DNA from: Bacillota bacterium | Lineage (GTDB): Bacteria; Bacillota; Clostridia; Clostridiales; Clostridiaceae | Length of the DNA stretch: 40,128 bases | NCBI GenBank assembly: GCA_030705885.1 | Contig: JAUZPN010000009.1 | Coordinates: forward strand, 1-40,128 | Reading direction: 5' to 3' | The notes under the pieces: generated by a model | What the model was told of the DNA's origin: nothing | What the model saw: the letters and a program-made list of their open reading frames with translations, nothing else | The model's database searches: none | Part shown: positions 10,036 through 40,128 of the stretch, piece by piece | Layout: each line of letters starts with the position of its first letter | How positions within the stretch are numbered: position 1 is the first letter of the stretch | Program-made: the position numbers and the translations under genes

Positions 10036-10152
10036 AAATATTCCCTCCATATATTAAATAATTTTTTTATTTTTTTAACTTTACCTCTATCACTCAGTAA
10101 AGTAATGGCTTCCTGCACTAGGTCCAGCCATGATTTTAATACTTGTACTTTT

Positions 10153-17272: not shown

Positions 17273-18552
17273 ATACTATCTTTAAAATTACTATTTTCTC
17301 TAATTCCCTGTTTTAGAAAATTGTTAATCACATCATTATAAGTAATAGCAGTATCAATTTTTTGATTGCTTCCTTTTACATATGCACCTAAGTTTATTAA
17401 ATCCTCGGAATCCTTATATGTTGCTAATAAATCTCTTGCAAATGAAGCTGCTTTTTTATGGTCATCTGAAGCTATCTCCGACATAAGTCTGCTTATACTT
17501 GCAAGAATATCTATAGCTGGAAAATGGTTCTTAGCTGCCAATGCTCTTGACAACACTATATGACCATCAAGGATACCTCTTACAGCATCTGCAATTGGTT
17601 CATTAAAATCATCACCATCAACTAAAACTGTATAAAAAGCAGTTATTGATCCTTTGTCAGACATTCCTGACCTTTCCATGAGCTTTGGAAGCATTGCAAA
17701 TACTGAAGGTGTATATCCTTTTGTTGCAGGAGGTTCTCCAATAGCAAGTCCAATTTCACGTTGAGCCATAGCAAATCTTGTAACAGAGTCCATCATTAAA
17801 ATTACTTTTTTACCTTTATCTCTAAAATATTCAGCTATAGCTGTTGCAGTAAAGGCTCCTTTTAATCTTACTAAAGCCGGCTTATCGGAAGTAGCACAAA
17901 CAACAATTGATTTTTTCATGCCTTCTGGTCCTAAATCTCTTTCAATAAAATCCCTGACTTCTCTGCCTCTTTCTCCTATTAGTGCAATTACGTTTACATC
18001 AGCTTCAGCATACTTTGCAATCATTCCAAGTGTTGTACTTTTTCCAACACCGCTTCCAGCAAATATACCTACTCTTTGTCCTTCACCACAAGTTAAAAAT
18101 CCATCAATAGCTCTAACTCCTGTTGGCAATATATTTTTAATTCTCTCTCTTTTTAATGGATCTGGTGGTTCATTTTCAAGAGAATATTCAATATTAGATT
18201 TAAGTTCTGAGCCATCAATTGGGTTTCCTAACCCATCTAATACCTTACCAAATAGTTCTTCAGAGCATTTTACATTAAGAGGTTTGCCTGCAGATATTAC
18301 TTTGCAGCCAGGAGATATTCCAGTTAATTCTCCTAAAGGCATTAATATGACATTATCATCTTTAAATCCAACAACTTCGCATGAAATTGGTCTATTTTTT
18401 TCATTAAAAATAGTGCATACTTCGCCAACAAAAGCTCTCATTCCTTCAACTTCAACAGTAAGACCAATGACTTTTTTTACTCTGCCTTCAATAAAACTAA
18501 AATCTGTTTCACTTACTTTTTTCATTATTTTTTTGAAGTCTAAAGATATCAT
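17245..18552 (-). CDS. fliI: FliI, flagellar export ATPase
   Basis: FliI is the F1-beta-like ATPase that energises and orders substrate entry into the export gate. The 435-residue length is normal. The Walker A motif GIFAGSGVGKST is at residues 162-173. Walker B is in KVILMMDSVTRFAMAQ, with GEPPATKGYTPSVFAMLPKL after it, a signature of flagellar/type III ATPases rather than F1-ATPase. AGGGAG precedes the ATG. It follows fliH by about two dozen bases. A copy of its final codons lies downstream (17179-17206). Confidence 0.98.
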   Translation of the reverse strand: MISLDFKKIMKKVSETDFSFIEGRVKKVIGLTVEVEGMRAFVGEVCTIFNEKNRPISCEVVGFKDDNVILMPLGELTGISPGCKVISAGKPLNVKCSEELFGKVLDGLGNPIDGSELKSNIEYSLENEPPDPLKRERIKNILPTGVRAIDGFLTCGEGQRVGIFAGSGVGKSTTLGMIAKYAEADVNVIALIGERGREVRDFIERDLGPEGMKKSIVVCATSDKPALVRLKGAFTATAIAEYFRDKGKKVILMMDSVTRFAMAQREIGLAIGEPPATKGYTPSVFAMLPKLMERSGMSDKGSITAFYTVLVDGDDFNEPIADAVRGILDGHIVLSRALAAKNHFPAIDILASISRLMSEIASDDHKKAASFARDLLATYKDSEDLINLGAYVKGSNQKIDTAITYNDVINNFLKQGIRENSNFKDSIIQLTQMFN

Positions 18553-18575
18553 AAAATCTCCCTTTCAGCACTATA

Positions 18576-19349
18576 CTAAAACTCATTTTCTTCAAAGATA
18601 GTTCTAAGCTTTTCCATTCCTTCATCAATACCAACAGTAATTTTGCCATTATCTTTTTCAACTACGGCATTACCAAACTGAACAGAATCATCACTTATGA
18701 CAAATATATCTGCATTTGTTGCCATTTGATCTTTCCATAATTTAATTTGCTCTTTAATGTTATTACTGTATAAACTATTACATCTTACAACATATCGTTT
18801 TGCATTTTTTGCTTTTTCAATTGCATTAAAAACCATTTGAGAAATGGAATCTTCATTCTTCACTTCTCTTTGTAAAATCTCTTCTGTAATATTAATTATA
18901 AGTTTTATAATGTCTTCTTTCTTATTTTCAATATAACTTTTACATTCCTGATCAACTAATGCTATCATGTCATCTGTCTTTTTTTTTGCTTTTTCAGCTT
19001 CTAATGATGCATTTACTAAAGCAACATCATATCCTTTTTGATGGCCTTCATTATATCCTTTTTCATAAGCTTTGCTTACTATTTCATTTACTTTAGAATT
19101 TGCTTCATTTTCAATTTTTTCTGCTTCAGTATAAGCATTTGTTAAAATTGACTGACTTTGCATTTTAGCATTTTCTAATATATTTTTTGTGAAATTTTCA
19201 TAGTTTTCAACATGTTCTTTAGTAATAATTTCTTTAGTGAAATTTTCGTTAACTTCCTTAGTTACTGGATTATCAAATTTAGTAACGATACTTTTATCTC
19301 CACCATGAATAACATTATTATTTTTAATAACATTAAACGACGATAGCAT
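18576..19349 (-). CDS. fliH: FliH, negative regulator and partner of FliI
   Basis: FliH binds FliI and brings it to the export gate and C-ring. I chose the ATG at 19349 (257 residues), which overlaps the fliG 3' end by 17 bases and has AGGGGTGGTGA before it. The protein has a charged N-terminus, then a long helical region (ILTNAYTEAEKIENEANSK onward) with a GYNEGHQKGYD Gly-containing helix typical of FliH/YscL. A C-terminal domain with ITEEILQREV and a VGIDEGMEKLR-type end follows. Confidence 0.92.
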   Translation of the reverse strand: MLSSFNVIKNNNVIHGGDKSIVTKFDNPVTKEVNENFTKEIITKEHVENYENFTKNILENAKMQSQSILTNAYTEAEKIENEANSKVNEIVSKAYEKGYNEGHQKGYDVALVNASLEAEKAKKKTDDMIALVDQECKSYIENKKEDIIKLIINITEEILQREVKNEDSISQMVFNAIEKAKNAKRYVVRCNSLYSNNIKEQIKLWKDQMATNADIFVISDDSVQFGNAVVEKDNGKITVGIDEGMEKLRTIFEENEF

Positions 19350-20352
19350 CTTCACCACCCCTTGATACAACAATTTCACCAGCTTCATCTAATCTTCTTA
19401 TTATACTAACAATTTTCTGCTGAGCCTTTTCTACATCAATAAGTCTTACAGGTCCAAGGAATTCCATATCTTCTTTTAAAGAAGCACTTGCTCTTTTAGA
19501 TTGATTTCTAAATATTGAATTTGCAACTTCTTCTGAACATCCTTTAAGCGCTAGTGCAAGTTCTTTAGTATCAACTTCACGTAAAATTCTTTGTATAGAA
19601 ACATCATCAAGTGTAATAATATCTTCAAATACAAACATAGATTCCTTAACTTTTTCTGCTAATTCAGCATTTTCCTTTTCTAAGCTTTCAGTAATATTTT
19701 TCTCAGTACCTCTATCAACCATATTTAATATATCTACTAAAGTCTGCAATCCGCCAAGTGTAGTCATATCAGAACGTACAACTGAAGAAAGCTTGCTATC
19801 AAGAATTTTTTCAATTTCCTTAACTACCACTGGAGAAGTGTTGCTCATTGTTGCTATTCTATAAGCAACCTCAGCTTGTATTTCTTCAGGAAGTGCAGAT
19901 ATAATTTGACCTGCCTTATCTGACTGTAAATAGCATAATACTAAAGCTATAGTTTGAGGATGCTCATTAGAAATAATATTTAAAAGCTGATGAGCATCTG
20001 CCTTTCTAGCTATAGCAAAAGGTCTATACTGCTGAGTAGCTTCTGTAACCTTCTCTAGAATATCTTTTGCTCTTTGAACACCTAACGCTTTTCCTAAAAG
20101 GTTCTTGGCATATTCAAGACCACCTTCTAATATAAAATCCTTAGCTTTATTCATTTCAATAAATTCACCTAATATTTCTTCTTTTTGATCTGACTTTACT
20201 TGCGAAATATTAGCGATTTCATAAGTGATTTTTTGAATCTCTTGTTCAGGTAACTTTTTAATTATTGCTGCTGATGCATCTGGTCCCAAAGTAATGAATA
20301 ATATCGCTGCTTTTTGAACTCCACTCAATTTTGTGTTTTTATTTGTGGCCAA
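19333..20352 (-). CDS. fliG: FliG, motor switch protein
   Basis: FliG couples the MS ring (FliF) to the C-ring and contacts the stator, so it sets torque and rotation direction. The 339-residue length is normal. Visible landmarks are KAAILFITLGPDASAAIIKKL in the N-terminal FliF-binding domain, the EHPQTIALVL motif (about residues 125-134) in the middle domain, and the C-terminal torque helix region with MEFLGPVRLIDVEKAQQKIV. The charged residues expected in that helix are present. It follows fliF directly. Confidence 0.98.
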   Translation of the reverse strand: MATNKNTKLSGVQKAAILFITLGPDASAAIIKKLPEQEIQKITYEIANISQVKSDQKEEILGEFIEMNKAKDFILEGGLEYAKNLLGKALGVQRAKDILEKVTEATQQYRPFAIARKADAHQLLNIISNEHPQTIALVLCYLQSDKAGQIISALPEEIQAEVAYRIATMSNTSPVVVKEIEKILDSKLSSVVRSDMTTLGGLQTLVDILNMVDRGTEKNITESLEKENAELAEKVKESMFVFEDIITLDDVSIQRILREVDTKELALALKGCSEEVANSIFRNQSKRASASLKEDMEFLGPVRLIDVEKAQQKIVSIIRRLDEAGEIVVSRGGEDAIVV

Positions 20353-26796: not shown

Positions 26797-28635
26797 ATGT
26801 GTGGAATAGCTGGTTTTATAAATTTAAATTCAGATATAAGAAGCCAAGCTGAAATTATTAAAGCAATGACTGAAACATTAAAAAAAAGAGGACCAGATGA
26901 TGGCGGCTTTTATTTTTCAAAACATGCACTGCTTGGGCATAGAAGATTAGTTGTAGTAGACCCTTCAGGAGGTGCTCAGCCAATGACAAAAACAATAGGA
27001 AATTCTGCATTTACTATTGTATACAACGGTGAGCTTTACAATACTGAAGATGTCAGAAAAATTTTATTAGGAAAAGGTTATACTTTTAAATCTTATTCTG
27101 ATACTGAGGTTTTACTAACTGCATATATAGAATGGGGTAAAGACTGCGTAAATTATATTAATGGAATTTATGCTTTTGGCGTATGGAATGATAAAGACAA
27201 TAATTTGTTTCTTGCAAGAGATCCTTTAGGTGTAAAGCCTTTATTTTATAGCTTTAAAAATGATACACTCATTTTTGGTTCTGAAATTAAAACATTACTT
27301 GCTCATCCAATGATTGAACCTGTTGTAACAAAAGAAGGACTTTCAGATATTTTTGGACTTGGACCAGCCCGTTCACTTGGAAATGGAATTTTTAAAGATA
27401 TAAGTGAAGTACCTCCTGCACACTATTTGTTTTTTGATTCAAATAAAATTACATTAAAAGAATACTGGACTGTTAAGAGTGAACCTCACACTGAAAGCTT
27501 TGAAGAAACCTCAGAGCATGTACGTACTCTTCTTATAGATGCTATAACAAGACAGCTTGGTGCTGACGTTCCAGTGTGCACATTTTTATCAGGGGGTTTA
27601 GATTCTAGTATTATATCAGCAGTAGCATCTACTGAATTTAAGAAAAAAGGAAAGATACTTGATACTTATTCAATTGATTATGTTGGAAATGATATATATT
27701 TTAAACCTACAGAATTCCAGCCAAATTCAGACGAGGTATGGGCTGAAAAAATGTCAGATTTTATTCAAAGTAATCATCATAAAATAGTAATAAGCACTGA
27801 AAACCTGCTTTCTGCTCTTAAAGATGCTGTTTTAGCTAATGATTTACCTGGAATGGCAGATATAGATTCTTCATTATTTTTATTCTGCAAAGAAGTAAGG
27901 AAAAATGCTGTTGTTTCTTTGTCAGGCGAGTGTGCAGACGAACTCTTTGGAGGATATCCATGGTTTAGAAATCCAGAGTATATAAACAGTAATACTTTCC
28001 CATGGTCAAGAGCTGTAAAGGAAAGATGTGAAATATTATCAAAAGATTTAGGAGATCTGCATCTTGAAGAATATGTAGCTTCTAAATATGATGAAACATT
28101 AAAGAAAGTACCAAGACTTGATGGAGAATCACCTTCAGAGCATAGAATGAGAGAACTGTTCTACCTTAATATTAAATGGTTTATGATGACTCTGCTTAAC
28201 AGAAAAGACAGAATGAGTATGTCCAATAGTTTAGAAGTAAGAGTGCCATTTGCTGATTATAGAATTGTAGAATATGCCTTTAATATACCAATGGACATGA
28301 AGTATTACAAGGATAGAGAAAAAGGATTATTAAGATATGCACTTAAAGGACTGCTTCCAAAAGAGATTGTTGAAAGAAAAAAGAGTCCTTATCCTAAAAC
28401 TCACAACCCAAAATATACAGAAATAGTACAAAATACTATGAGAGATATTTTAAATGATAAAAATTCACCAATTCTTCAGCTTGTTGATTTTAATAAAATA
28501 AAAGAAATCACAGAAACTGAAGGCAGAGCCTTTAAAAAGCCTTGGTATGGACAGCTTATGACAGGCCCTCAGCTTCTTGCATATATGATACAGATTAACA
28601 CTTGGCTTAAGGAATATAAGATTAGAATAGTATAA
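26797..28635 (+). CDS. asnB: Glutamine-hydrolysing asparagine synthase, AsnB family
   Basis: The enzyme makes asparagine from aspartate, ATP and glutamine. The 612-residue protein starts MCGIAGF, placing the amidotransferase nucleophile Cys at residue 2. The glutaminase domain continues with KRGPDDGG (30-37), GHRRL (47-51) and YNGELYN (76-82). The synthetase domain has the PP-loop SGGLDSS (265-271) and a LSGECADELFGGYPW segment that binds pyrophosphate. GGAGATG precedes the ATG. Some AsnB relatives amidate cell-wall or natural-product substrates. It is convergent with the biosynthetic cluster and not in its transcript, so free asparagine synthesis is the default reading. Confidence 0.95.
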   Translation: MCGIAGFINLNSDIRSQAEIIKAMTETLKKRGPDDGGFYFSKHALLGHRRLVVVDPSGGAQPMTKTIGNSAFTIVYNGELYNTEDVRKILLGKGYTFKSYSDTEVLLTAYIEWGKDCVNYINGIYAFGVWNDKDNNLFLARDPLGVKPLFYSFKNDTLIFGSEIKTLLAHPMIEPVVTKEGLSDIFGLGPARSLGNGIFKDISEVPPAHYLFFDSNKITLKEYWTVKSEPHTESFEETSEHVRTLLIDAITRQLGADVPVCTFLSGGLDSSIISAVASTEFKKKGKILDTYSIDYVGNDIYFKPTEFQPNSDEVWAEKMSDFIQSNHHKIVISTENLLSALKDAVLANDLPGMADIDSSLFLFCKEVRKNAVVSLSGECADELFGGYPWFRNPEYINSNTFPWSRAVKERCEILSKDLGDLHLEEYVASKYDETLKKVPRLDGESPSEHRMRELFYLNIKWFMMTLLNRKDRMSMSNSLEVRVPFADYRIVEYAFNIPMDMKYYKDREKGLLRYALKGLLPKEIVERKKSPYPKTHNPKYTEIVQNTMRDILNDKNSPILQLVDFNKIKEITETEGRAFKKPWYGQLMTGPQLLAYMIQINTWLKEYKIRIV

Positions 28636-28657
28636 ATTTTTTGAAGGGTGTATTCTA

Positions 28658-29944
28658 TTGGAAAAAGGAGACAACTTAATTAGTTCATCAAGATATAAGT
28701 CTGAACGTGCAAAAGTAAAGAATATTTTTGCTTCAATAAAAAGCTCTAAATCACTATTAAGTTTTTTAGGCCCTGCTTTTATTGTCAGCGTTGCCTATAT
28801 AGATCCTGGAAATTTTGCAGCTAATATCAGCGGCGGTTCCATATTTAATTATAACCTTTTATGGGTTATATTATGGAGTAATATAATGGCAATATTTCTT
28901 CAAATAATATCTGCTAAATTAGGTATTGCAACAGGTAAAAACTTAACACAAATGTGCAGACAGGTATTTTCAAAGAGAATAAACTGGTTCTTATATATTG
29001 CATCAACACTAAGTGCAATAGCAACAACAATGGCTGAATTTTTAGGAGGAGTATTGGGATTTTACTTATTATTCGGCATACCCCTGTCCTATTCAGTCAT
29101 TTTGACTGCAGCAGTAACATTTCTTATAATATACTTACAGAAATATGGTCAAAGAATTATAGAAATTGTAATAACTATGTTTGTTGCAGTCATATGTGTT
29201 TCATATACAATTGAATTATTTCTTGCAAAACCTGAATGGCATCAAGCATTGCTTCACACTATAATTCCATCACTACCAAACAGCAATGCAGTTTTAATTG
29301 CAGTAGGCATGTTAGGTGCTACAGTTATGCCTCATGTTATATACCTTCACTCAGAACTGGTGCAATGCCGTAACAAAAAATTATCATTAAAAGATAAAAA
29401 AAATCATTTACGCATGGAAAAAATTGATATTCTTGTTGCAATGAATATTGCTTATGTTGTAAATGCTGCTATGGTAATAGTCTCAGCTGCAGTATTTTTT
29501 AGAAGAGGATTAACTGTTGACTCAATTGAACAAGCACATAAATCGCTTGAACCGCTTTTAGGCAGGCTCTCAAGTGGAGCATTTGGAGCAGCTTTGCTTG
29601 CATCAGGATTTTCATCATCTTCCGTAGGTGCAATGGCAGGCGAAACAATTATGGATGGCTTTGTAGATGTAAAAATTCCTTTAATAGCGAAAAGATTAAT
29701 AACCATGCTTCCAGGTGTATTAGTTATTGCACTAGGAGTAAATCCCATGAAAGCACTGTTAGTAAGCCAGGTATGCTTAAGTTTTATACTGCCTATTACA
29801 ATAATTTGCATGTTAAAAATCACTAGCAGAAAAGACTTAATGGGAGACTTTGTTAATAAGCCTTTTGTTAAATTTATAGGATGGGTATTTACAATAATGA
29901 TTATTAGTATGAATTTAGTTTTGATATATTTTACTTTTATATGA
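28658..29944 (+). CDS. mntH: Nramp-family Mn2+/Fe2+ transporter (MntH-like)
   Basis: Nramp transporters import Mn2+ or Fe2+ with protons. The 428-residue protein has about eleven hydrophobic segments. The two metal-binding motifs are intact: DPGN in helix 1 (residues 49-52) and ATVMPH in helix 6 (Met224, His226), which is the transition-metal form rather than the Mg2+-type variants. The start is a TTG at 28658 with GAAGGGTG seven bases upstream; I see no better ATG. It begins 22 bases after asnB and is probably in the same transcript. No MntR-type operator was recognised. Confidence 0.93.
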   Translation: MEKGDNLISSSRYKSERAKVKNIFASIKSSKSLLSFLGPAFIVSVAYIDPGNFAANISGGSIFNYNLLWVILWSNIMAIFLQIISAKLGIATGKNLTQMCRQVFSKRINWFLYIASTLSAIATTMAEFLGGVLGFYLLFGIPLSYSVILTAAVTFLIIYLQKYGQRIIEIVITMFVAVICVSYTIELFLAKPEWHQALLHTIIPSLPNSNAVLIAVGMLGATVMPHVIYLHSELVQCRNKKLSLKDKKNHLRMEKIDILVAMNIAYVVNAAMVIVSAAVFFRRGLTVDSIEQAHKSLEPLLGRLSSGAFGAALLASGFSSSSVGAMAGETIMDGFVDVKIPLIAKRLITMLPGVLVIALGVNPMKALLVSQVCLSFILPITIICMLKITSRKDLMGDFVNKPFVKFIGWVFTIMIISMNLVLIYFTFI

Positions 29945-30117: not shown

Positions 30118-30804
30118 TTATCCCATAAATGCATTATTATAAATCTGTTGTAAAGTAATATAATTTACTGGTTCAATTAAATAATATGGAGAGCAGACAG
30201 CTGCACTATATGTATTATCTATATGATAATTTCTTATGTTAAGCAATTCATTATTGTTTTTAACTAAGTATAAAAAAGGTGTTTTCCTTTCACATCGAAA
30301 AGAATCAAGCGGAATTGCTAAACCTAACCCCTTATATTTTATATAACTTTCCTTCATACACCAAATATCAAAAAACAATTTATCACATTCTTCATCTAAA
30401 GCCATTTTAAGAAATTCATATTCTTCTTTTGCAAAAAAACGTTCTGCTAAATCAAAATCACATACTTTAATGTGTTCAATATCTACCCCTATTTTGTAAT
30501 CACTAATTCCACAAAAAACCCAATCCTTTGAATGAGATATATTATAATGAAAATTTTTGTCATTAATTAAATATGGTTTTCCATAATCAGTTACTCCAAA
30601 ACTTATTTTATCATTCATAACTCCAAGTTTTTTAGTTATAAGCTGTCTTATAAGAAGATCTCCATATAATGATCTTTTTCTATCATCAATAAAATGAAAT
30701 TTATTTATTCTATCTTTTTTTTCAGAAGAGATAAGTGAATAAAATTCTTCATACTTTTGTTTTTCTATTGGTTCATTAATATTCAAAGCATATAATTCCA
30801 ACAT
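30118..30804 (-). CDS. Sfp-type 4'-phosphopantetheinyl transferase
   Basis: The enzyme converts apo carrier proteins of PKS/NRPS systems to their active form using coenzyme A. The 228-residue protein has the Sfp signatures GVDIE (106-110, Mg2+-binding Asp108 and Glu110) and WCMKESYIKYKG (148-159, with Lys151, Glu152 and Lys156), plus an N-terminal YGKPYL (74-79) and NISHSKDWV (88-96). Its length fits the Sfp class rather than AcpS. It is the last gene of the cluster and would activate the three carrier domains seen here. A ~107-bp gap with an inverted repeat separates it from the acyltransferase gene. Confidence 0.95.
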   Translation of the reverse strand: MLELYALNINEPIEKQKYEEFYSLISSEKKDRINKFHFIDDRKRSLYGDLLIRQLITKKLGVMNDKISFGVTDYGKPYLINDKNFHYNISHSKDWVFCGISDYKIGVDIEHIKVCDFDLAERFFAKEEYEFLKMALDEECDKLFFDIWCMKESYIKYKGLGLAIPLDSFRCERKTPFLYLVKNNNELLNIRNYHIDNTYSAAVCSPYYLIEPVNYITLQQIYNNAFMG

Positions 30805-30832
30805 ATTTAATTACCTTTATTATTTATTTTAG

Positions 30833-30862
30833 TACATGCAAATCCACATAGATTTGCATGTA
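30833..30862. repeat. 12-bp perfect inverted repeat between acyltransferase and PPTase genes
   Basis: TACATGCAAATC, a 6-base loop, then GATTTGCATGTA. It lies in the 107-bp gap inside the cluster. No U-run follows, so it may be an operator or an RNA processing site rather than a terminator. Confidence 0.55.
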
Positions 30863-30911
30863 TACAAATTACTCTATTTTTCTCCTATCAAAAAGGATAT
30901 TAATATATTAT

Positions 30912-32165
30912 TTATTGTAAAAAATCTTTAAATGTATATATTTCTCCTGATTCCTCAAGGATTTGACTAAACCACTCTTGTTGTTCTGACTTTGGAAGCA
31001 TTTTTGTTTCAAAAATCTTCTTTAGGCATGTTAATGCCTCCCTTTCCAAATCCTCGTTTAAAATACTTTCATTACTTTCTATTTTTTCTTGAATATTTTT
31101 TATGTTATTATAAGGATTTACAACACCTTCTTGATAAGCAGCATTATCCCAGTTTTTATTTGGTGTAGCAACTCCAGCTACAAGACACTTTGTAATTAAT
31201 GTGGGAATATGTTTACTATACATTTCATTTGTTTTATATAACTGAAATATCTCATTTCTCTCACTTTTGTTACTTAAACATATAGATTTTATATTTTCGT
31301 TACAATTTCTTATAATATTAGTAATTAAATTTTTAGGTCCCATCTCAATTATAAGAGTGATTCCCCTATCATCAAAAAAGTCTACTGTCTTTACCCATTG
31401 AACTGGATTAGTAAGATGCATTGATAAATTATTTGCAGTATCGTTTATACATTTATATGGACGGCCTGTAACATTTGAAATAACTGGATATCTAAGTTCT
31501 CCAATTTCTATACTTTCAATCCTATGTTTAAGCTCTTCCGCATACTTACTCATTAAAGGTGAATGGTATGGAGCACTTCCAATTAAAGGAGTTATCTGCC
31601 CACCATTCTTTAATATAATCTCCTCTATCTCCATTAAATCATCAACATTACCTGATATAGATGTTTGATTTGGTGTTGTATAGCTAGAAATATATACCTT
31701 CTTGCCATTTTCCTGAGCTTTTTTACACTCGTTTTCAAGATCTAATGCTTTATAATTTTCAACAATAGTCATACCTCCATTAGTTTCTTTTGTTACTTGC
31801 TCAGCTAACTCAGCTCTAAATTCAACTAATTTTATGGCATCAGAAAATTTAAATACACCTGCACTTGTTAAAGCCAAATATTCACCTAAACTATGTCCTG
31901 CACAAAACTGTGGTACATACCCAATTTCCTGCATAAATACTCTGAATGCTGCAATTCCACTTGTTAATATTGATACATGAGATTCTTTTGTATGTGAAAG
32001 AGTTGATAAAGGTCCTTCAAAACATAACTTCTTCACATCAAACCCTGCTACATCAGATGCTTCTTCAAAAGTTTCTCTTACTATTTTATATTCATCATAG
32101 ATTCCTTGGCACATTCCCACATAATGAGAGCCTTGTCCAGGAAACACAAAGGATAATTTATACAT
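30912..32165 (-). CDS. Free-standing (trans-acting) malonyl-CoA acyltransferase with C-terminal extension
   Basis: The enzyme would load acyl units from CoA onto ACP domains of the megasynthase. The 417-residue protein begins FVFPGQGSHYVGM and has the catalytic GHSLGEY (Ser92) and the active-site His201 in APYHSPL. The AT fold ends near residue 300. About 110 further residues follow (IPTLITKCLVAGVATPNKNW, then Glu/Lys-rich helices), longer than plain FabD; similar tails occur on trans-ATs of Bacillus hybrid clusters. The start overlaps the FkbH-like gene by 8 bases. No AT domain is visible in the partial synthase, which fits trans loading. A housekeeping FabD is less likely given the neighbours. 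Confidence 0.9.
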   Translation of the reverse strand: MYKLSFVFPGQGSHYVGMCQGIYDEYKIVRETFEEASDVAGFDVKKLCFEGPLSTLSHTKESHVSILTSGIAAFRVFMQEIGYVPQFCAGHSLGEYLALTSAGVFKFSDAIKLVEFRAELAEQVTKETNGGMTIVENYKALDLENECKKAQENGKKVYISSYTTPNQTSISGNVDDLMEIEEIILKNGGQITPLIGSAPYHSPLMSKYAEELKHRIESIEIGELRYPVISNVTGRPYKCINDTANNLSMHLTNPVQWVKTVDFFDDRGITLIIEMGPKNLITNIIRNCNENIKSICLSNKSERNEIFQLYKTNEMYSKHIPTLITKCLVAGVATPNKNWDNAAYQEGVVNPYNNIKNIQEKIESNESILNEDLEREALTCLKKIFETKMLPKSEQQEWFSQILEESGEIYTFKDFLQ

Positions 32166-33198
32166 TCAAATCTTCCCCTTCCATTAATTGAATATAATCA
32201 GGTAATTCACCTAACTTATTAAAATCTGCTTTAAGTATTTCTACATTTTCCCTCTGATCAACTTTATAGAATCCTGCAAATTTATATGTAATGTACATTA
32301 CTCTATTTCTATTTGTTGGAACAAATTCTGCTAATAATTCAACATTTGAATCTTTAGCTTTTTTAGCAATAAAGTTTAACATAACAGCTCCAACACCTCG
32401 TGACATAACCCGACAAGACATCAGAAGTAATTTTAGTATCCACTGTGTCTCCTTTTTTTCTATTAAGGCTAATCCTATTTTTCCGTAGTCCCCATACTTA
32501 TCTTTCAATTGCGAAATCAACACACTATAATTATTATCTTTACTACATTTGTCTAATTCTTCATAAGAATAGGTGCACCCTGTTGCATTTAATTGATGAG
32601 TTCTTACAGTAAGCTCTTCTGCACGTGCTAAATCATCTTCATGAACTCTATCAATAATAAATTTCATATCAAGTAATCTTAAAAACTCTTCTTCAGTACC
32701 TTCAAAAACTTCTTTTATATTATTCCTCTTAATATCATTTTGATAGAGAAGTCTTCTATTTTTAGAATCACTTGTTATATAAGAAGGATTAAAAATCTCT
32801 TGCTTTAGAAAAGTTTTTACATCAGTTACATCAAAACATACAATCTCAGGTATCTTATACTTAACCTCGTCCCTTTCAAAAACTTGATCATCTACAAAAG
32901 CAAAAGTGTCAATCCCAATATTTAATAATTCTTGTATTCTTTTTATACCTTCTGATTTTGGATTCCATGAAATCTGAGGATATAAAAAATATTCATCTAA
33001 ACTAAATTCTTTTAACTTCTCCATTACAGTTTCATAATCATTCCTGCTACTTATTGATTGAAGAATTCCTCTAGAATCAAGTGTTTTTATTACTTCAACT
33101 ACTTCAGATTTTATTTTGACATTACTATCCTCAATTAATATTCCATCCCATACAGTATTGTCCAAATCCCAAACAACACATTTTATTTTAGCTGCCAT
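32158..33198 (-). CDS. FkbH-like HAD-IIIC phosphatase / glyceryltransferase
   Basis: FkbH proteins take 1,3-bisphosphoglycerate, remove phosphate and load a glyceryl group on a free-standing ACP. That is the first step toward methoxymalonyl- or hydroxymalonyl-ACP, or glyceryl/lactyl starters. The 346-residue protein has the HAD nucleophile motif VVWDLDNTVWDG (Asp11, Asp13), SSRND (50-54), FVDDQVFERDE (101-111), and a GNAT-like C-terminal domain with MSCRVMSRGVG (260-270). Cys262 could be the acyl-holding cysteine. A strong AAGGAGGAG site precedes the ATG. A free ACP and a 3-hydroxyacyl-CoA-dehydrogenase-like gene lie just upstream, matching the FkbH/J/K set. The acyl-CoA dehydrogenase and methyltransferase of the full set are not in the window. 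Confidence 0.9.
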   Translation of the reverse strand: MAAKIKCVVWDLDNTVWDGILIEDSNVKIKSEVVEVIKTLDSRGILQSISSRNDYETVMEKLKEFSLDEYFLYPQISWNPKSEGIKRIQELLNIGIDTFAFVDDQVFERDEVKYKIPEIVCFDVTDVKTFLKQEIFNPSYITSDSKNRRLLYQNDIKRNNIKEVFEGTEEEFLRLLDMKFIIDRVHEDDLARAEELTVRTHQLNATGCTYSYEELDKCSKDNNYSVLISQLKDKYGDYGKIGLALIEKKETQWILKLLLMSCRVMSRGVGAVMLNFIAKKAKDSNVELLAEFVPTNRNRVMYITYKFAGFYKVDQRENVEILKADFNKLGELPDYIQLMEGEDLNV

Positions 33199-33442
33199 TA
33201 TTCTCCTCCTTATTAAAATTTAATAAATGTAGAAATTCTTGTTCCCTAATATACCTAGATTTCAGAAAAACGTTTTTTTATTATACTATCTTAAATATCA
33301 AAGTTCCACTAAATTTCTAAAAGGAACTTCACTTTGCTATCATTTAGAAATTAATTTGCTGACTCAGCCTTTAAAGATAAATTCTTTCAAATCACACCAT
33401 AAAAGCTGCTTCAACAAATTTTTACTATAGTTGCTGTGGAAC
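33199..33442. other. Gap inside the cluster with interleaved inverted repeats
   Basis: This 244-bp stretch between the ACP and FkbH-like genes has no convincing gene on either strand. It holds two interleaved dyads. One pairs AGTTCC arms at 33302-33307 and 33323-33328. The other pairs TTTAGAAATT-type arms at 33311-33320 and 33343-33352. They cannot both form simple hairpins at once, giving a pseudoknot or switch topology. A TATAAT box follows, pointing toward the FkbH-like gene. Confidence 0.6.
33280..33308 (-). promoter_or_regulatory. Possible internal promoter for the FkbH-acyltransferase genes
   Basis: On the minus strand a perfect TATAAT (33280-33285) lies 17 bases from TGGAAC (33303-33308), a poor -35 match that overlaps an arm of the inverted repeat. 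Transcription would begin about 75 bases before the FkbH-like start. The poor -35 might mean activator dependence. Confidence 0.35.
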
Positions 33443-33676
33443 CTAATTTATCTTAGATTCAATCAATTCACAAATAGAATTTATACTTTTGAATTTTTCT
33501 AAATCCAAATCGTCATTACTTATTTCAACACCAAATTCTTTTTCAATAAATAACACTAATTGCATAGCAAATAAAGAGTTTATAAAATTCTTTTCAAAAA
33601 TATTCTCATCATCTGCTATTTCTTGATTTCTAAAAAACCTCTCCATAAATTTTCTTACTTTTGCTTTAATATTCAT
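33443..33676 (-). CDS. Free-standing acyl carrier protein
   Basis: A 77-residue carrier protein that would hold the extender unit built by its neighbours. The ATG at 33676 is preferred over an upstream GTG because GGAG lies eight bases before it. The phosphopantetheine site is in FINSLFAMQLVLFIE, with NSL where most ACPs have DSL. Helix content and the acidic DDLDLEKFKSINSI segment fit an ACP. It lies 60 bases after the dehydrogenase gene and is the likely acceptor for the FkbH-like enzyme. Confidence 0.9.
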   Translation of the reverse strand: MNIKAKVRKFMERFFRNQEIADDENIFEKNFINSLFAMQLVLFIEKEFGVEISNDDLDLEKFKSINSICELIESKIN

Positions 33677-33736
33677 ATTTTTCACTCCTATATATAATTT
33701 TTTTTGTATAGATATATGATATATACTTATAAATAC

Positions 33737-34582
33737 TTAAAAATACTTATAAAATCCTTCACCACTTTTTCTTCCAAAAAGTTTAGCATCTACCATTTTA
33801 CGTAATAATGGTGCAACTCTATATTTTGGATCTTGATAACTTTCATATAATACATCTAGTGAATTAACTACTGTGTCTAAACCAATTAAATCTGCTGTTT
33901 CTAATGGTCCCATTTTATGTTCAAAACACATTTTAAAAATTGCATCTACATCTTCAGCTGCTGCAACACCATCTTGAACAACATATGCTGCTTCATTCAT
34001 GAGCAGATGTGAAATCCTATTTGAGACAAATCCAGGATAGTCTTCAACAATTATTGGGTGAATTTCTACACTATCTAATAATTCTTTTAATTTTTTTATA
34101 GTATCTTCTGATGTATGATATCCTTTAATTACTTCAGCAGCCTTTTTAACAGGTACAGGATTCATAAAATGGGTTCCAATTACCCTATCAGCCCTATTTG
34201 TAAAACTACCTATTTTAGTAATTGAAATACACGAAGTGTTTACAAGGTAAATACATTCTTTTTTGCAAACACTTTCTAGTTGTTCGTAAACTGTCCTTTT
34301 AACATCAATTATTTCAGGTACATTTTCTATTATCACATCAACTTCATTTAATTCAGAATAATCTTTTGTATATGTAATCCTACTCATTAAACCATCAATA
34401 TTATCATTTTTTTTATCTTTATTAAACATATTTGCAAAACGTATATTGTTACGAATCATCTTTTTACAATTACCTAAAACTTCTTCACTAATATCAAGTA
34501 CAATTACATCATGTTCATAAGCTGCAAACCTTTGTGCAACTCCACTTCCCATTATTCCAGCACCTATAACACCAATTTTCAT
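33737..34582 (-). CDS. 3-hydroxyacyl-CoA-dehydrogenase-family oxidoreductase (FkbK/ZmaG-like context)
   Basis: The family oxidises 3-hydroxyacyl thioesters with NAD+. The 281-residue protein has the Rossmann motif VIGAGIMGSG (5-14), the catalytic region NTSCISIT with Ser117, GTHFMNPVPV with His138, Glu150, and PGFVSNRI. It ends LFGRKSGEGFYKYF, as in 3-hydroxybutyryl-CoA dehydrogenase. Between an NRPS/PKS gene and a free ACP, it more likely oxidises the C3 alcohol of glyceryl-ACP than butyryl-pathway substrates. Its ribosome binding site lies in the last codons of the synthase gene (GAGGGGG), so it is translationally coupled to it. Confidence 0.9.
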   Translation of the reverse strand: MKIGVIGAGIMGSGVAQRFAAYEHDVIVLDISEEVLGNCKKMIRNNIRFANMFNKDKKNDNIDGLMSRITYTKDYSELNEVDVIIENVPEIIDVKRTVYEQLESVCKKECIYLVNTSCISITKIGSFTNRADRVIGTHFMNPVPVKKAAEVIKGYHTSEDTIKKLKELLDSVEIHPIIVEDYPGFVSNRISHLLMNEAAYVVQDGVAAAEDVDAIFKMCFEHKMGPLETADLIGLDTVVNSLDVLYESYQDPKYRVAPLLRKMVDAKLFGRKSGEGFYKYF

Positions 34583-34586
34583 TTTT

Positions 34587-37500
34587 TTATACCCCCTCTT
34601 GATTATTTAAAAAACCAACTTCTTCGCAATAACTTAACATCTTTTTGGTTAAAGTTTCATCTAAGCTCATCCACTTAAAATTCAATGCACTTAGAATTTT
34701 TATAGATAAATCTTGGTAGACATGTATATCAGTAACCTCATCAGCACTAGTCATAACTCCTGTATTTAGTATAATATTGCTAATATTCTTACTATATTGA
34801 GGTTTTTTAAAATTGTCTTCAACAAAATCATAGAACTCTTCCACTGGAAGAATTTCTACTGAATAACCATTAGCATGTACAAAATTAGCTAACTCAATCA
34901 TAGTTGTAGGATTACTATTAAATAAATGTAACGTTTTTCCTATAATTAACTTTCTGTTAAATAAAAGCCTAAAAGCTTTTGCAACATAATCTACATAAGA
35001 AAAATCTAGCTTAATACCTTCAACATTAGGAATTTTCCCAAACTCAATAACAGATTTAACTAACCTATAAAAAGCACTCTGATTTATATTCTTTTGAAAG
35101 TTTCCATTTTTACTGTTAAATACTAAATTTCCAACTCGGTAAACAGTGATATCTATTCCGCTATTTCTTGCTTCTAATATCACCTTTTCTGCTTCAATTT
35201 TGCTATTTACATAATTGTTATCACCAATTTGATTAATATCAGTATTGTATTCAGTGAAAACATCATACTTTTTATTCTCTATATATCCAGATCCAACACT
35301 TATAGTAGAAATATGATGGAATTTTTTATGCACTCCTCTTTTAGCAATTTCTATGCAATTATTTACCGTTTTTACATTAACCTGCAAAAATTCATCATAA
35401 TCACCATGGTGCTTTACTAAGGCTGCTGAATTTATAATACAATCTATAATATTTGTTAAATTATTGTATTCTTCTTGTTCTAAATTAAAATATGCTTTAG
35501 TTACATCTCCATTGTAAATACTTATTCTGTCATGATTTAATTCATATAAGTCATCATTAAAATAGAAATTATAATTTTCTTTCGCTCTATGCTCTGCCTG
35601 TTCCCTATCAATGCCTCTAACAATAAGATGTAAATTAGTATTAGTATTTTCTAAGAGTTCATGAAGTATAAACACTCCTAAGTATCCAGTAGCTCCTAAT
35701 AATAACACATTCTCATATTCTTCAGTTATATCAATTTCTTCTAATTTAAACTCTGATACGTTATTTTTATACGACTCAATCGTTTGCTTCATATCTTGAT
35801 CCTTCAAGAACTGTTCAGCCAATTCAATACTTTCTTTATTAGCATTGTTTCTTAGGTATTCAAACTTTTCCTTTATATAACGACCATCACTTAAGCTAAC
35901 TACTTTTGCAAGGCTAGCTATATCTTGATTTTGAAGTATGGTATTAATATCAATTACAAATCCACTTTCTATTATCTTTGAAAGTGCTTCAATAGCCTTA
36001 ATTGAATTACCTCCAATATCAAAGAAATTGTCCTCTATTCCTACCTTTTCTATTCCCAATACGTCTTTATAAATGTCAGTCAAAAGCATTTCTATATGAT
36101 TTCTAGGTGCTACATAAATAGTTTGGCTGCTATTTTCCTTATTTGGCAATGGCAGCTTATTAGCAACTACCTTGCCATTACTGCTATAAGGAATTTGATT
36201 AACCTTAACAAAATAGGTTGGCACCATATATTCAGGTAAATTGTTTTTTAATGATTTTTTAATATTCCTTATATCTAGTTCACCATTCAAAACAATATAA
36301 CAGCATAATTCTTTCTCTTTTCCATTTACTTCAACAGGAACAATGGTAACCTCCTCAACATTTGGATACTGATAAACATATTTCTCTATTTCTGATATTT
36401 CAATTCTAAATCCTCTAATCTTTACCTGCCTATCAGCCCTTCCTAAAAATTCCACATTACCATCTTCAGTCCAACGCCCTAAATCGCCTGTTTTATAGAT
36501 TCTATCTTGAAATATATCATTAATAATAAATTTCTCTTCAGTAAGATCATTTCTATTTAAATATCCCCTGCTTACTCCTCTGCCTCCAATATAAATTTCT
36601 CCTACAGCACCAATTGGTTTTGGCATTCCATACTCATCTAATATATAAATACTATAATTTGCAAGATTTCTTCCGATTGGTATTATTGTACTCTCAAGCC
36701 TGTTTACTTTATAATACGTAGAACAACAAGTTGTCTCTGTTGGACCATAACTATTATAAAGAACTATAGAATCATTATAATTATCTATATATTCTTTTTT
36801 CATTACATCGCCGCCTGAAATAACCAATTTAATATTAGGATTGTGAATATATTTTCCTACCTGATTAAATAACAACGCAGAACAGCTCATCGAGTTAATT
36901 TTTCTATCAGTAATGATTTGGTCAAGTTTACCCATATCTAGTACATCAACCTTATCAACAAGCACTAATTGAGATCCGGAAAATAACGTTGGATAAACTT
37001 CTTCATTAAATCCATCAAAAGTATAAGAATATTGTTGTAACATTATTCTATTTTCAGAATACCCAAATTCATTAAAGAACCCATTTACAAAAGCAATCAA
37101 ATTTTTATGCTCAACCATTACTCCTTTTGGTTGACCTGTTGAACCAGATGTATACATGATATAAGCTAAATCATTTGAAGTATTAATTGACTTAATTTTA
37201 TCACTTAATTTATCATATGGTATTTCATTAACGTCAATAATCTCTAAAGATTTTGGGATGTTATATAGTTGAGAATATTCACTATTTGTTAAAACATATC
37301 TACAGTCACTGTCTTGAAGCATAAAAGCAACACGTTCTCGTGGATAAACCATGTCTATTGGCAAAAATGCTGCTCCTGCTTTAAGTATGGCAAAAATAGA
37401 TATAATTGTATCAATTGTTTTTTCTTGATAAATAGCAATTACTTCTTCCCTTTGTACACCCTTATTTCTAAGTAAATTTGCAAGTTTATTTACTTTTTCA

Positions 37501-40128
37501 CCTAATTCTTTATAAGTAAGTTGCTTATCATAGTAAATTACAGCAATTTTTTCATTATATTTATTAATAGACTTTTCTAAATAATCATTTATATTTTCAT
37601 ATATATCATATTTAAATGAACTGCTAGAAAACTCATTTACTACTAACTTTCTTTCATTTTTAGACAAAATATTAATATTACTTATTTCTTGCTCTGGATT
37701 TAAGATTATCTCATCTACTAATGCTAAAAAATTGTCAGCAAATCTTTGCATAGCTTCTTTTGTAAATAAATTAGTACTATATTCCATGTCATAGCAAATA
37801 CAATTATTATCCTCAACTGCACTAAATGATATATCAAACTTAGATGCTTTATTTGATACTATTGAATCAGCAAATTCTATTGTTCCAAAGTAATCCTCTC
37901 CACTTTTATCAATACCATAGTTTTGAAATACAAACATAATATCAAATACTGGATTTCTACTTAAGTCTCTTCTTCCTTCTAATTTTTCTACAATATAGCT
38001 AAAAGGATATTCTTGATTCTGAAAAGCTTCTAAAGTAGAATACTTCACCTGACTTATAAATTCTCCAAAAGTTTTTTTAGGATCTATATAATTTCGTAAT
38101 ACTACTGTATTTACAAACATACCTACAATATCTTTTACTTTTTTATTATTTCTTCCTACTGTTGGTGAGCCTATAATTATATCATCCTGATTCGAGTATC
38201 TATACAAAGCTACATCTAATAAAGATAACAATAATACAAATAAAGTTGTTTTATATCCGCTGCATAATGTTTTAAGGAGCATCGTTTGTTCCATCTCAAT
38301 CTTAAACTTTAAATGTGATCCTTCAAACTTTTGAATATTACCCCTGCCTTGCTTTGTTGGCAAGTCAATTAATGGCAGTTCACCTTTAAGTTTTTCCATC
38401 CAATAATTTTCCTGATTTTTCAACGTGCCAGATTGTAATCGTTCTTCATACCAACAACAATACTCTTTATATGTGTAATTTAATTTTTCAAGCTCTTCAC
38501 CTTTATATAAAGCTAGGAAATCATGAAATATAATCTCATTAGATATTCCATCAGTAATAATATGATGTATATCGTACATCAATACACTCTTACCCTTATC
38601 AGTATTAATGATTTTCATTCTAAATAATGGTGCTGTTGAAAGGTCAAAAGGTTTTAAAAACTTATCATAAATTTGACTAATATTCTTCTTCACAAATTCT
38701 TCTTCTAAATATTCAAACTCTGCATCAATATAAACATTAGAATGTATTTTTTGATATGGCTTTCCATCCTTATCATAAAATGATGTTCGTAACATTTCAT
38801 GTCTTTCTACTAATTTTGCTAGTGAAGTCTTTACCTTCTCCAATTCAAAATTCTTTGTCATTATTACTAAATTGGATACATTATAATTTGTACTTTTTTC
38901 TTGAACTTTATCAAGTAAGAAAATTCCCCTTTGTGATGGTGATAGTGGATACTCTTTATCTATACCTAAATCTAACTTATTATTAAATTCAACAACATCA
39001 ACTTCCCCTTTTTTTTGATTGTCTATCATTGCAGTAATATACTCACATAGATCTATAATCCTTGAATTTTTTAAAATATCTACAGCCTGCAATTCAATTC
39101 CAATCTTTTTTGAAAGATTATCAGTTATTTTTATTCCAGATATAGAATCCATTCCCATTTCATAAAAATTATCAAAAATATCTATTTCATCGAATCCAAG
39201 TATTTCTGAGAATACCTTAGCAACATCTCTTTCTAGTTTTGAATATTGATTATCTTCTCTACCTGAAAGTACTAGTTCCTTATTTTCTTTTACAGAAGCC
39301 TTTAATTTTCTATCTCTCATAGAATCCACATAAGCATTCAATCTCTTATTTAGCCTTCCATATGTAGCTATATTTGATGTTGCTAAAAAACTAATTCCGC
39401 CGGTTTTGTTTAAATAGCCTACTACAATATTATCTAAATCTGTCATGAATGCTTTATTGAATCCTTCGATAGCTTCATAAGAATTCATAGCTTTAAATAT
39501 TGTATCTACTGTAAAACCAGAGTCATGGGCCATTCCTTTATCCTTCCATGTACACCAATTAACTGTCATCGCTGGCAAACCCAAAGATTTTCGATAAAAC
39601 GCAAATTCATTAATAAAGGAATTTGCAAGAATATAATCCGTCTGTCCCAATGCACTAAATACTGTTGCAACTGAAGAAAACATGATGAAAAACTGTAAAT
39701 TATCACTAAGAGTTGCTTTATGCAGGTTTAACGTACCTGAAATCTTTGGCAGTATTACATCTGTATTTAATAAATCTTCACCCCTATCAAGAATTGTCTT
39801 ATCTTTTGCTACACCAGCACTATGAACTATTCCATTAATTTTTCCATATCTTTGTCTTATATCTTTTATAACTTCATTTAATTCATTGCATTTAGCCACA
39901 TTACACTGAACAACCTCAATACTACCACACATGTTTTTTAATTCTACTAGATCCTTAAGTTTTTCTTTAAGACTGCTCTCAATACTAGTATCATTTATCA
40001 TTTTTTCCCAATAAGTTTGAATTGGCATTTTTCTTCGAGTAAGTAAAACTAATTTAATTTTACCATAACTGCTTAAGTATTTTCCTATTGTCAATCCGAT
40101 TCCGCCAATTCCACCAGTAATGATGTAA
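34587..40128 (-). CDS. Hybrid PKS-NRPS, C-terminal part: KR-ACP-C-A-PCP-R (N-terminus beyond window)
   Basis: The frame is open to the right edge (first visible residues YIITGGIGGIG, the NADPH site of a ketoreductase), so the start lies outside. Domains by position on the minus strand: KR ~40128-39390 (Ser, Tyr in QTDYILAN); ACP ~39248-39023 (GMDSI); condensation ~38948-37652 (HHIITDG at 38567); adenylation ~37586-36143 (YTSGSTGQPKG, NSYGPTETT, YKTGDLGRW); PCP ~36110-35891 (GGNSI); thioester reductase ~35717-34590 (LLLGATGYLG, YVNSK). It reduces a polyketide keto group, joins the chain to one amino acid and releases it by NAD(P)H reduction. The pocket residues read D-G-E-S-I-G-S-C-C-K, near the lysine code. 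The next gene overlaps its ribosome binding site with this 3' end. Confidence 0.95.
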   Translation of the reverse strand, partial: YIITGGIGGIGLTIGKYLSSYGKIKLVLLTRRKMPIQTYWEKMINDTSIESSLKEKLKDLVELKNMCGSIEVVQCNVAKCNELNEVIKDIRQRYGKINGIVHSAGVAKDKTILDRGEDLLNTDVILPKISGTLNLHKATLSDNLQFFIMFSSVATVFSALGQTDYILANSFINEFAFYRKSLGLPAMTVNWCTWKDKGMAHDSGFTVDTIFKAMNSYEAIEGFNKAFMTDLDNIVVGYLNKTGGISFLATSNIATYGRLNKRLNAYVDSMRDRKLKASVKENKELVLSGREDNQYSKLERDVAKVFSEILGFDEIDIFDNFYEMGMDSISGIKITDNLSKKIGIELQAVDILKNSRIIDLCEYITAMIDNQKKGEVDVVEFNNKLDLGIDKEYPLSPSQRGIFLLDKVQEKSTNYNVSNLVIMTKNFELEKVKTSLAKLVERHEMLRTSFYDKDGKPYQKIHSNVYIDAEFEYLEEEFVKKNISQIYDKFLKPFDLSTAPLFRMKIINTDKGKSVLMYDIHHIITDGISNEIIFHDFLALYKGEELEKLNYTYKEYCCWYEERLQSGTLKNQENYWMEKLKGELPLIDLPTKQGRGNIQKFEGSHLKFKIEMEQTMLLKTLCSGYKTTLFVLLLSLLDVALYRYSNQDDIIIGSPTVGRNNKKVKDIVGMFVNTVVLRNYIDPKKTFGEFISQVKYSTLEAFQNQEYPFSYIVEKLEGRRDLSRNPVFDIMFVFQNYGIDKSGEDYFGTIEFADSIVSNKASKFDISFSAVEDNNCICYDMEYSTNLFTKEAMQRFADNFLALVDEIILNPEQEISNINILSKNERKLVVNEFSSSSFKYDIYENINDYLEKSINKYNEKIAVIYYDKQLTYKELGEKVNKLANLLRNKGVQREEVIAIYQEKTIDTIISIFAILKAGAAFLPIDMVYPRERVAFMLQDSDCRYVLTNSEYSQLYNIPKSLEIIDVNEIPYDKLSDKIKSINTSNDLAYIMYTSGSTGQPKGVMVEHKNLIAFVNGFFNEFGYSENRIMLQQYSYTFDGFNEEVYPTLFSGSQLVLVDKVDVLDMGKLDQIITDRKINSMSCSALLFNQVGKYIHNPNIKLVISGGDVMKKEYIDNYNDSIVLYNSYGPTETTCCSTYYKVNRLESTIIPIGRNLANYSIYILDEYGMPKPIGAVGEIYIGGRGVSRGYLNRNDLTEEKFIINDIFQDRIYKTGDLGRWTEDGNVEFLGRADRQVKIRGFRIEISEIEKYVYQYPNVEEVTIVPVEVNGKEKELCCYIVLNGELDIRNIKKSLKNNLPEYMVPTYFVKVNQIPYSSNGKVVANKLPLPNKENSSQTIYVAPRNHIEMLLTDIYKDVLGIEKVGIEDNFFDIGGNSIKAIEALSKIIESGFVIDINTILQNQDIASLAKVVSLSDGRYIKEKFEYLRNNANKESIELAEQFLKDQDMKQTIESYKNNVSEFKLEEIDITEEYENVLLLGATGYLGVFILHELLENTNTNLHLIVRGIDREQAEHRAKENYNFYFNDDLYELNHDRISIYNGDVTKAYFNLEQEEYNNLTNIIDCIINSAALVKHHGDYDEFLQVNVKTVNNCIEIAKRGVHKKFHHISTISVGSGYIENKKYDVFTEYNTDINQIGDNNYVNSKIEAEKVILEARNSGIDITVYRVGNLVFNSKNGNFQKNINQSAFYRLVKSVIEFGKIPNVEGIKLDFSYVDYVAKAFRLLFNRKLIIGKTLHLFNSNPTTMIELANFVHANGYSVEILPVEEFYDFVEDNFKKPQYSKNISNIILNTGVMTSADEVTDIHVYQDLSIKILSALNFKWMSLDETLTKKMLSYCEEVGFLNNQEGV

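Follow-up and report, generated by a model that had tools for sequence, protein, structure and literature searches.

What does a clostridial cluster that breaks off at a contig end assemble, and where does the rest of it lie? The question is posed by six minus-strand genes at the right end (30118-40127) of a 40,128-nt contig, the whole of which is called the window here. The window is contig C239 of a metagenome-assembled genome (MAG) of 3.0 Mb in 249 contigs, 78% complete with 2.7% contamination, whose host shares a GTDB family with Clostridium frigidicarnis. The genes encode a hybrid of polyketide synthase (PKS) and nonribosomal peptide synthetase (NRPS), with ketoreductase (KR), acyl carrier protein (ACP), condensation (C), adenylation (A), peptidyl carrier protein (PCP) and thioester reductase (R) domains in the order KR-ACP-C-A-PCP-R; a homologue of 3-hydroxyacyl-CoA dehydrogenase (HCDH); a discrete ACP; FkbH; a discrete acyltransferase (AT); and an Sfp-type 4'-phosphopantetheinyl transferase (PPTase). 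Identification was by Pfam and NCBIfam profile matches, all with scores well past chance, and by inspection of catalytic motifs, which are intact in each domain inspected. Every gene listed in the original prediction for this DNA is where it had been placed, and the domains bear out its description of the region as the 3' part of a clostridial hybrid PKS-NRPS cluster.

We put the probability at roughly two in three that this contig end (30118-40128) and the start of a second contig of the same MAG, C182, belong to a single biosynthetic cluster with the hydroxymalonyl chemistry proposed below, which is the best explanation of the findings as a whole.

An interrupted assembly line and its probable continuation

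The hybrid protein (34587-40127, minus strand, like all cluster features in the window; 1846 aa seen) has a reading frame that is open off the contig end and is therefore 5'-truncated. Its KR domain (39540-40127; PF08659, residues 1-196; motifs GIGGIG and Y-N) is present as the catalytic half, the structural half being beyond the contig end. The cluster part of C182, about its first 9.5 kb, encodes a 2859-aa PKS of the architecture KS-KR-ACP-KS-KR-ACP-KS (KS, ketosynthase), which ends just after the third KS and has three KS, two KR, two ACP and no AT domain (no PF00698). Directly downstream is an acyl-CoA dehydrogenase (ACAD) gene (C182 3-770, minus strand), cut by the contig end at 256 aa and recognized by its identity to an AnaB-like group. 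The last KS of the C182 PKS has no KR-ACP after it, and the window protein starts within a KR-ACP that has no KS before it, so the two proteins together would form one split module. The two contigs are complementary, because C182 has the one modular PKS found in the genome, while the condensation domain (37647-38957; PF00668, 390 bits; motif HHIITDG), the sole one assembled, and the only AT other than FabD are in the window. Third-position G+C content (GC3) of the two assembly-line pieces is 0.154 and 0.189, against 0.28-0.33 in neighboring genes, and codon use correlates between the pieces at r 0.97, against 0.66-0.80 for neighboring genes. Ruminococcus flavefaciens ATCC 19208 provides the nearest relative of both the C182 ACAD (70% identity) and the window FkbH (61-62%, among the best 80 loci described below).

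No sequence joins the two contigs, and so we infer their linkage. It seems unlikely that the window cluster is instead self-sufficient, or continued on an unassembled contig, with the C182 PKS mis-binned or part of a second cluster. Two contig ends without overlap, in a MAG of this fragmentation, completeness and contamination, would agree with such a separation, but modular KS were found on C182 only and are missing from the window protein, the window FkbH set lacks an ACAD where C182 has one of exactly the matching subfamily beside its PKS, and the codon use of the two pieces agrees. Joined to C182, the window cluster would be a trans-AT PKS/NRPS hybrid, with AT-less modules on one contig and a discrete AT on the other. 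The original prediction had named a trans-acting AT from the window, where the absence of a KS makes that assignment impossible to judge; the discrete AT is there, and the three KS of a PKS without AT on C182 support it. Sequence upstream of 40128, which had been suggested as a check, is probably represented by this 5' part on C182.

Two kinds of FkbH cassette

In the window, FkbH (32158-33198; TIGR01686, 274.6 bits against a cut-off of 146.65), a predicted glyceryl-ACP synthase, is adjoined by the discrete ACP (33443-33685; PF00550; active-site Ser in FINSLFAM), which may start at an ATG a few codons further inside, and by the HCDH homologue (33737-34582; PF02737 and PF00725), of FkbK/ZmaG-like role and about 50-62% identical to HCDHs adjoining FkbH at other loci. 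The FkbH-type extender set of the original prediction is thus partly there, as FkbH, ACP and HCDH; no ACAD is found in the window, so the set is incomplete there, and a truncated ACAD occurs on C182.

An FkbH alignment was used to scan 84,980 species genomes, and the best 80 loci were compared with the window in gene content. Fifty-eight loci, including two from other sources (L047 and L048), have near FkbH an ACAD of a first type, at least 40% identical to that of Clostridium sp. SIG253. Among solved structures the ACAD of one such locus, L054, matches FkbI (1r2j), though general acyl-CoA dehydrogenases score higher. Nine other FkbH loci have an ACAD of a different, AnaB/RedW-like subfamily, to which the C182 ACAD also belongs: over the part compared, it is 62-70% identical to this second type and at most 34% identical to the first. 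With the R. flavefaciens relative as query, the best solved relative of the second type is the prolyl-ACP dehydrogenase 4irn, and FkbI is not among the 60 solved-structure matches listed. First-type sequences have Glu at the position used in medium-chain acyl-CoA dehydrogenase (MCAD) and Gly at that of isovaleryl-CoA dehydrogenase (IVD) in 57 of 57 aligned rows; in the second type the MCAD position is Ser and the Glu has moved to the IVD position, where the C182 fragment has it too. No FkbI/ZmaE-type ACAD is found in the window, and the ACAD of C182, on a different contig from FkbH, is of the AnaB-like type. The two kinds of cassette are mutually exclusive, one having an FkbI-like ACAD and no electron-transfer flavoprotein (Etf), the other an AnaB/RedW-like ACAD and forming a Clostridia clade.

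In the FkbH tree the window sequence groups with one unclassified row and the full set of nine second-kind FkbHs (SH-aLRT 96), and is sister to R. flavefaciens ATCC 19208 (SH-aLRT 99); the HCDH tree agrees, with the window in the second-kind clade (SH-aLRT 94). Independently of C182, the window FkbH thus points to the very kind of ACAD that C182 carries. The second type is rare, occurring in 3 of 391 Clostridia genomes, the host included (E up to 1e-100). HCDH accompanies the set in seven of the nine second-kind FkbH loci and in two further loci with second-type ACAD, L137 and L138; L083 starts at FkbH, and none is seen in L068.

Several of the loci compared have features of their own. In L087 (11092-12173) and L069 (11027-12170) the coding sequence of the ACAD runs across two reading frames, which may reflect sequencing error or a pseudogene. 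Beside the FkbH set of L110, an A domain adjoins a second ACAD with an AnaB-like residue pattern (17462-20272), perhaps a prolyl-carrier dehydrogenase pair. L066 (13918-17226) and L082 (13844-17227), which have second-kind Ruminococcus cassettes, encode proteins of about 1100 aa with tandem AT domains.

An electron-transfer flavoprotein linked in relatives

Two genes, for proteins of about 250-280 and 320-350 aa, adjoin the second-type ACAD. The NCBIfam models for Etf beta and alpha match them in L053, L093, L137 and L138, and BLAST finds EtfB and EtfA in 11 of 11 loci with a second-type ACAD, that is, the nine FkbH loci plus L137 and L138, which came from an ACAD search. About eight of the 11 are independent, because L066, L069, L082 and L083 are near-copies. 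Neither protein is found by BLAST in any of the 58 first-type loci, within the stretch fetched. The EtfB of L053 (R. flavefaciens ATCC 19208) is closest to CarD and to Etfs of bifurcating type, those of A. fermentans, LctB, C. difficile and T. maritima, at 112-86 bits; the canonical Etf 1efp scores 37 bits. The difference hints at an electron-bifurcating Etf in the second-kind cassette. C182 ends inside its ACAD, the only Etf assembled is a housekeeping one, and EtfBA adjoin the ACAD in 11 of 11 relatives; we predict that etfB and etfA of the window cluster are in the gap between the contigs. A search of the genome itself for the C-terminal half of the ACAD and for Etf returned only a butyryl-CoA-dehydrogenase-like operon on contig C45.

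This dehydrogenase subfamily in an FkbH set, with its Etf link in relatives, is the unusual element of the locus, and it had been missed by the original prediction. The Etf-linked extender cassette, an anaerobe version with another dehydrogenase in place of the usual one, is apparently undescribed; no relevant paper tying Etf to hydroxymalonyl or FkbH pathways was found in the open-access literature searched.

Proposed extender unit, pathway and product

A motif rule has been proposed in which a charged residue separates CoA-dependent from ACP-dependent ATs (PMC4207774). The discrete AT of the window (30912-32165; PF00698; motif GHSLG) retains the Arg for the carboxylate and has Gln where CoA-using ATs carry Arg or Lys. 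Most other FkbH-adjacent ATs also lack a positive charge at that position, while Lys or Arg occupies the CoA-contact position in the second ATs of the two-AT clusters L056, L086 and L047 and in the genome's own FabD (Lys).

A parallel comes from L138 (5534-11189), where an HCDH-ACP-EtfA-EtfB-ACAD set occurs with a stand-alone A domain of canonical serine code (DVWHVSLIDK) and FkbH is not seen in the fetched stretch; this set is probably an aminomalonyl-ACP version in an anaerobe. In zwittermicin biosynthesis, an FkbH branch leads to hydroxymalonyl and a seryl branch to aminomalonyl. The pathway uses hydroxymalonyl-ACP and aminomalonyl-ACP as an extender pair (PMC4207774). Because the L138 set parallels this pair, the ACAD/Etf pair most likely catalyzes, by analogy, the later of the two oxidations at the beta carbon. 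The same parallel and the charge motif of the window AT make hydroxymalonyl-ACP the best reading for the extender of the window cluster. For the wider proposal, that strict anaerobes among the Clostridia own a route to alpha-hydroxy (and alpha-amino) malonyl-ACP through an AnaB-like acyl-ACP dehydrogenase and a dedicated, possibly electron-bifurcating Etf, and that the window cluster uses it, we see the chances as evenly balanced.

Somewhat unlikely, in our judgment, is a product of the FkbH/HCDH/ACP/AnaB-like ACAD/Etf set that is no extender at all, such as a glyceryl-derived starter for the first KS, or an ACAD that acts like prolyl-ACP dehydrogenase on another carrier-bound amino acid. The nearest solved structure (4irn), the Glu at the IVD rather than the FkbI position, and a C182 PKS that begins with a KS and has no loading module all fit such a role. 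Retention of HCDH with the set at most second-kind loci, the discrete AT of ACP-dependent type adjoining FkbH in the window, and the serine-specific A domain that takes the place of FkbH in L138, paralleling aminomalonyl-ACP synthesis, argue for an extender instead. An ordinary methoxymalonyl-ACP pathway, as for FK520 or ansamitocin, has homologous FkbH, ACP and HCDH; it is very improbable here, being set aside because the genes annotated next to FkbH and at the PKS end of C182 include no O-methyltransferase (the gap being unseen), and the ACAD is not FkbI-like.

The remaining domains of the hybrid protein are those of a reductive line end, as the original prediction had described it. An ACP domain (39036-39227; PF00550, residues 301-364; motif MDSIS) precedes the condensation domain, which is followed by an A domain (36171-37580; PF00501, AMP-binding, 251 bits, and PF13193), a PCP domain (35898-36122; a second PF00550 stretch, with a GNSIK motif at residue 1373) and the terminal R domain (34608-35711; PF07993, NAD_binding_4, and TIGR01746; residues 1473-1840). 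The R domain scores 216.6 bits against the TIGR01746 cut-off of 213.35 and has both the nucleotide-binding motif (GATGYLG) and the YxxxK motif (YVNSK) of a reductive-release NRPS. Alignment to the PheA positions gives the A domain the specificity code DGESIGSCCK, which agrees at 8 of 10 positions with a Lys code of BacB from bacitracin synthesis, DAESIGSVCK.

With hydroxymalonyl-ACP as the extender, the following pathway is proposed. The gene order would be KS1-KR-ACP-KS2-KR-ACP-KS3 and ACAD (C182), then the gap, then KR-ACP-C-A-PCP-R, HCDH, ACP, FkbH, AT and PPTase, the gap holding the remainder of the ACAD, the predicted etfB and etfA, and the structural half of the KR. With carriers primed by the PPTase, FkbH would load a three-carbon glycolytic unit to give glyceryl-ACP, HCDH would oxidize the C3 alcohol to the aldehyde, and ACAD would convert the aldehyde to hydroxymalonyl-ACP, passing electrons to the dedicated Etf. 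From its ACP this extender would be transferred to the PKS by the trans-AT, and any malonyl would be supplied through the housekeeping FabD. Three extensions, each followed by KR reduction, would give a polyhydroxylated acyl chain, which the last module would amidate with an amino acid, Lys being closest by the A code, and the R domain would release an aldehyde, or an alcohol after a second reduction. The likely product is a polyhydroxylated acyl-amino aldehyde or alcohol, with chemistry, amino acid and product all conditional on these assignments.

Several points weigh against this pathway or the linkage beneath it. Neither a read nor a contig bridges C182 and the window, and their ends show no overlap down to 12 bases. 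Neither piece has a loading module, transporter or regulator that we could find, and the cluster EtfBA is absent from the 78%-complete assembly, which has only the housekeeping pair on C45. Experimental support for hydroxymalonyl formation by an AnaB-like ACAD was not found. The charge rule has an exception in the AT of L099, which has Lys, and the Lys reading of the A domain depends on one BacB code, for which a literature text search gave no match.

If the proposal is true, the second-kind cassette shows how anaerobes carry out the last oxidation without oxygen as a sink, the combination of FkbH, AnaB-like ACAD and EtfBA would serve as a sequence marker by which genomes from gut and rumen could be screened for such clusters, and an oxygen-independent extender set would be available for engineering. 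If the Lys reading and aldehyde release both hold, the product, an acylated amino aldehyde or alcohol, may inhibit proteases.

Other features of the window

The dedicated Sfp enzyme of the original prediction is present as a PPTase of Sfp/AASDHPPT type (30118-30804, minus strand; PF22624 and PF01648). The trans-AT has an extra C-terminal stretch of about 110 aa (30912-31240), which aligns in most FkbH-adjacent ATs of 410-459 aa and is not covered by the solved AT matches listed. Adjoining the PPTase on the opposite strand (26797-29944) are an asnB-type asparagine synthetase and an Nramp metal transporter, probably outside the cluster. The same contig has a long flagellar operon (843-22061) with FlhA, FliP, FliG, FliF, FliH and FliI. 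Between the same coordinates lie a 616-aa fusion of FliR (Bac_export_1) and FlhB (Bac_export_2) at 2915-4765, a hook-type FlgE/F/G protein of 979 aa at 7111-10050, and a FliK-like protein of 1888 aa at 11048-16714, recognized in its C-terminal domain only; the latter two are apparently very long for their families.

Comparison with known systems

The original prediction overstated how unusual such a cluster is. Trans-AT PKS/NRPS hybrids are no rarity among Clostridium genomes, occurring in C. cellulovorans, C. beijerinckii, C. kluyveri, C. cellulolyticum and C. papyrosolvens, and have been catalogued since 2012 (PMC3250452). Nor is the gene combination singular, since the order HCDH-ACP-(ACAD)-FkbH-AT-PPTase recurs in several Paenibacillus species. 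A close match to the whole cluster, which would have told against its novelty, is found neither among 58 kin genomes nor among the best 80 FkbH loci, where the best FkbH identity is 61% (58% in plasmids).

The clusters of Paenibacillus algorifonticola, P. pasadenensis and P. roseus (L054, L058 and L096) share the order KR-ACP-C..A, HCDH, ACP, [ACAD], FkbH, AT, PPTase, with ATs 45-46% identical to that of the window. They differ in having an FkbI-type ACAD in place and no R domain in the parts fetched, and L054 has a Gly-like A code; we know of no product for any of the three. Clostridia bacterium SKW257 (L060 with L139) has a trans-AT and a line end KS..ACP-C-A-PCP-R followed by HCDH-ACP-ACAD-FkbH, but its ACAD is FkbI-type without Etf, no KR precedes the ACP, and the A code is Gly-like. 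R. flavefaciens ATCC 19208 (L053 and L136), with the nearest FkbH and ACAD, has a trans-AT, a PPTase after FkbH, and EtfBA, whereas its assembly line is NRPS-rich with methyltransferase and thioesterase domains, and its KS reaches just 36% identity. Some of the best NCBIfam matches to the C-A-PCP-R stretch are myxochelin MxcG and aureusimine AusA, which share this line end and reductive release; both are without a PKS part, and the window protein scores far under the family cut-offs (536 of 2300 and 903 of 2500 bits).

The zwittermicin A cluster itself is not a match: its gene set includes a seryl/aminomalonyl branch, and the genes annotated in the assembled window and C182 parts include neither a stand-alone A domain for serine nor a second ACP of a cassette. 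To our knowledge, the producers known to use hydroxymalonyl- and methoxymalonyl-ACP extenders are aerobic or facultative. The zwittermicin A ZmaD/E/G/N and FK520 FkbG-K sets share with the window FkbH, a discrete ACP, an HCDH homologue and an AT motif for an ACP-bound extender. Compared with them, the window cluster has an ACAD of another subfamily with its Glu elsewhere, an Etf of its own in relatives, no methyltransferase found, and an AT that is discrete rather than a domain. That ACAD subfamily is the one of the prolyl-ACP dehydrogenases AnaB and RedW, with the catalytic residue positioned as in AnaB, and the relative's EtfB is closest to bifurcating Etfs, as of the Bcd-EtfBA or CarCDE complexes. 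Where those enzymes act on proline or a CoA ester, the substrate here would be an ACP-bound aldehyde derived from the glyceryl unit.

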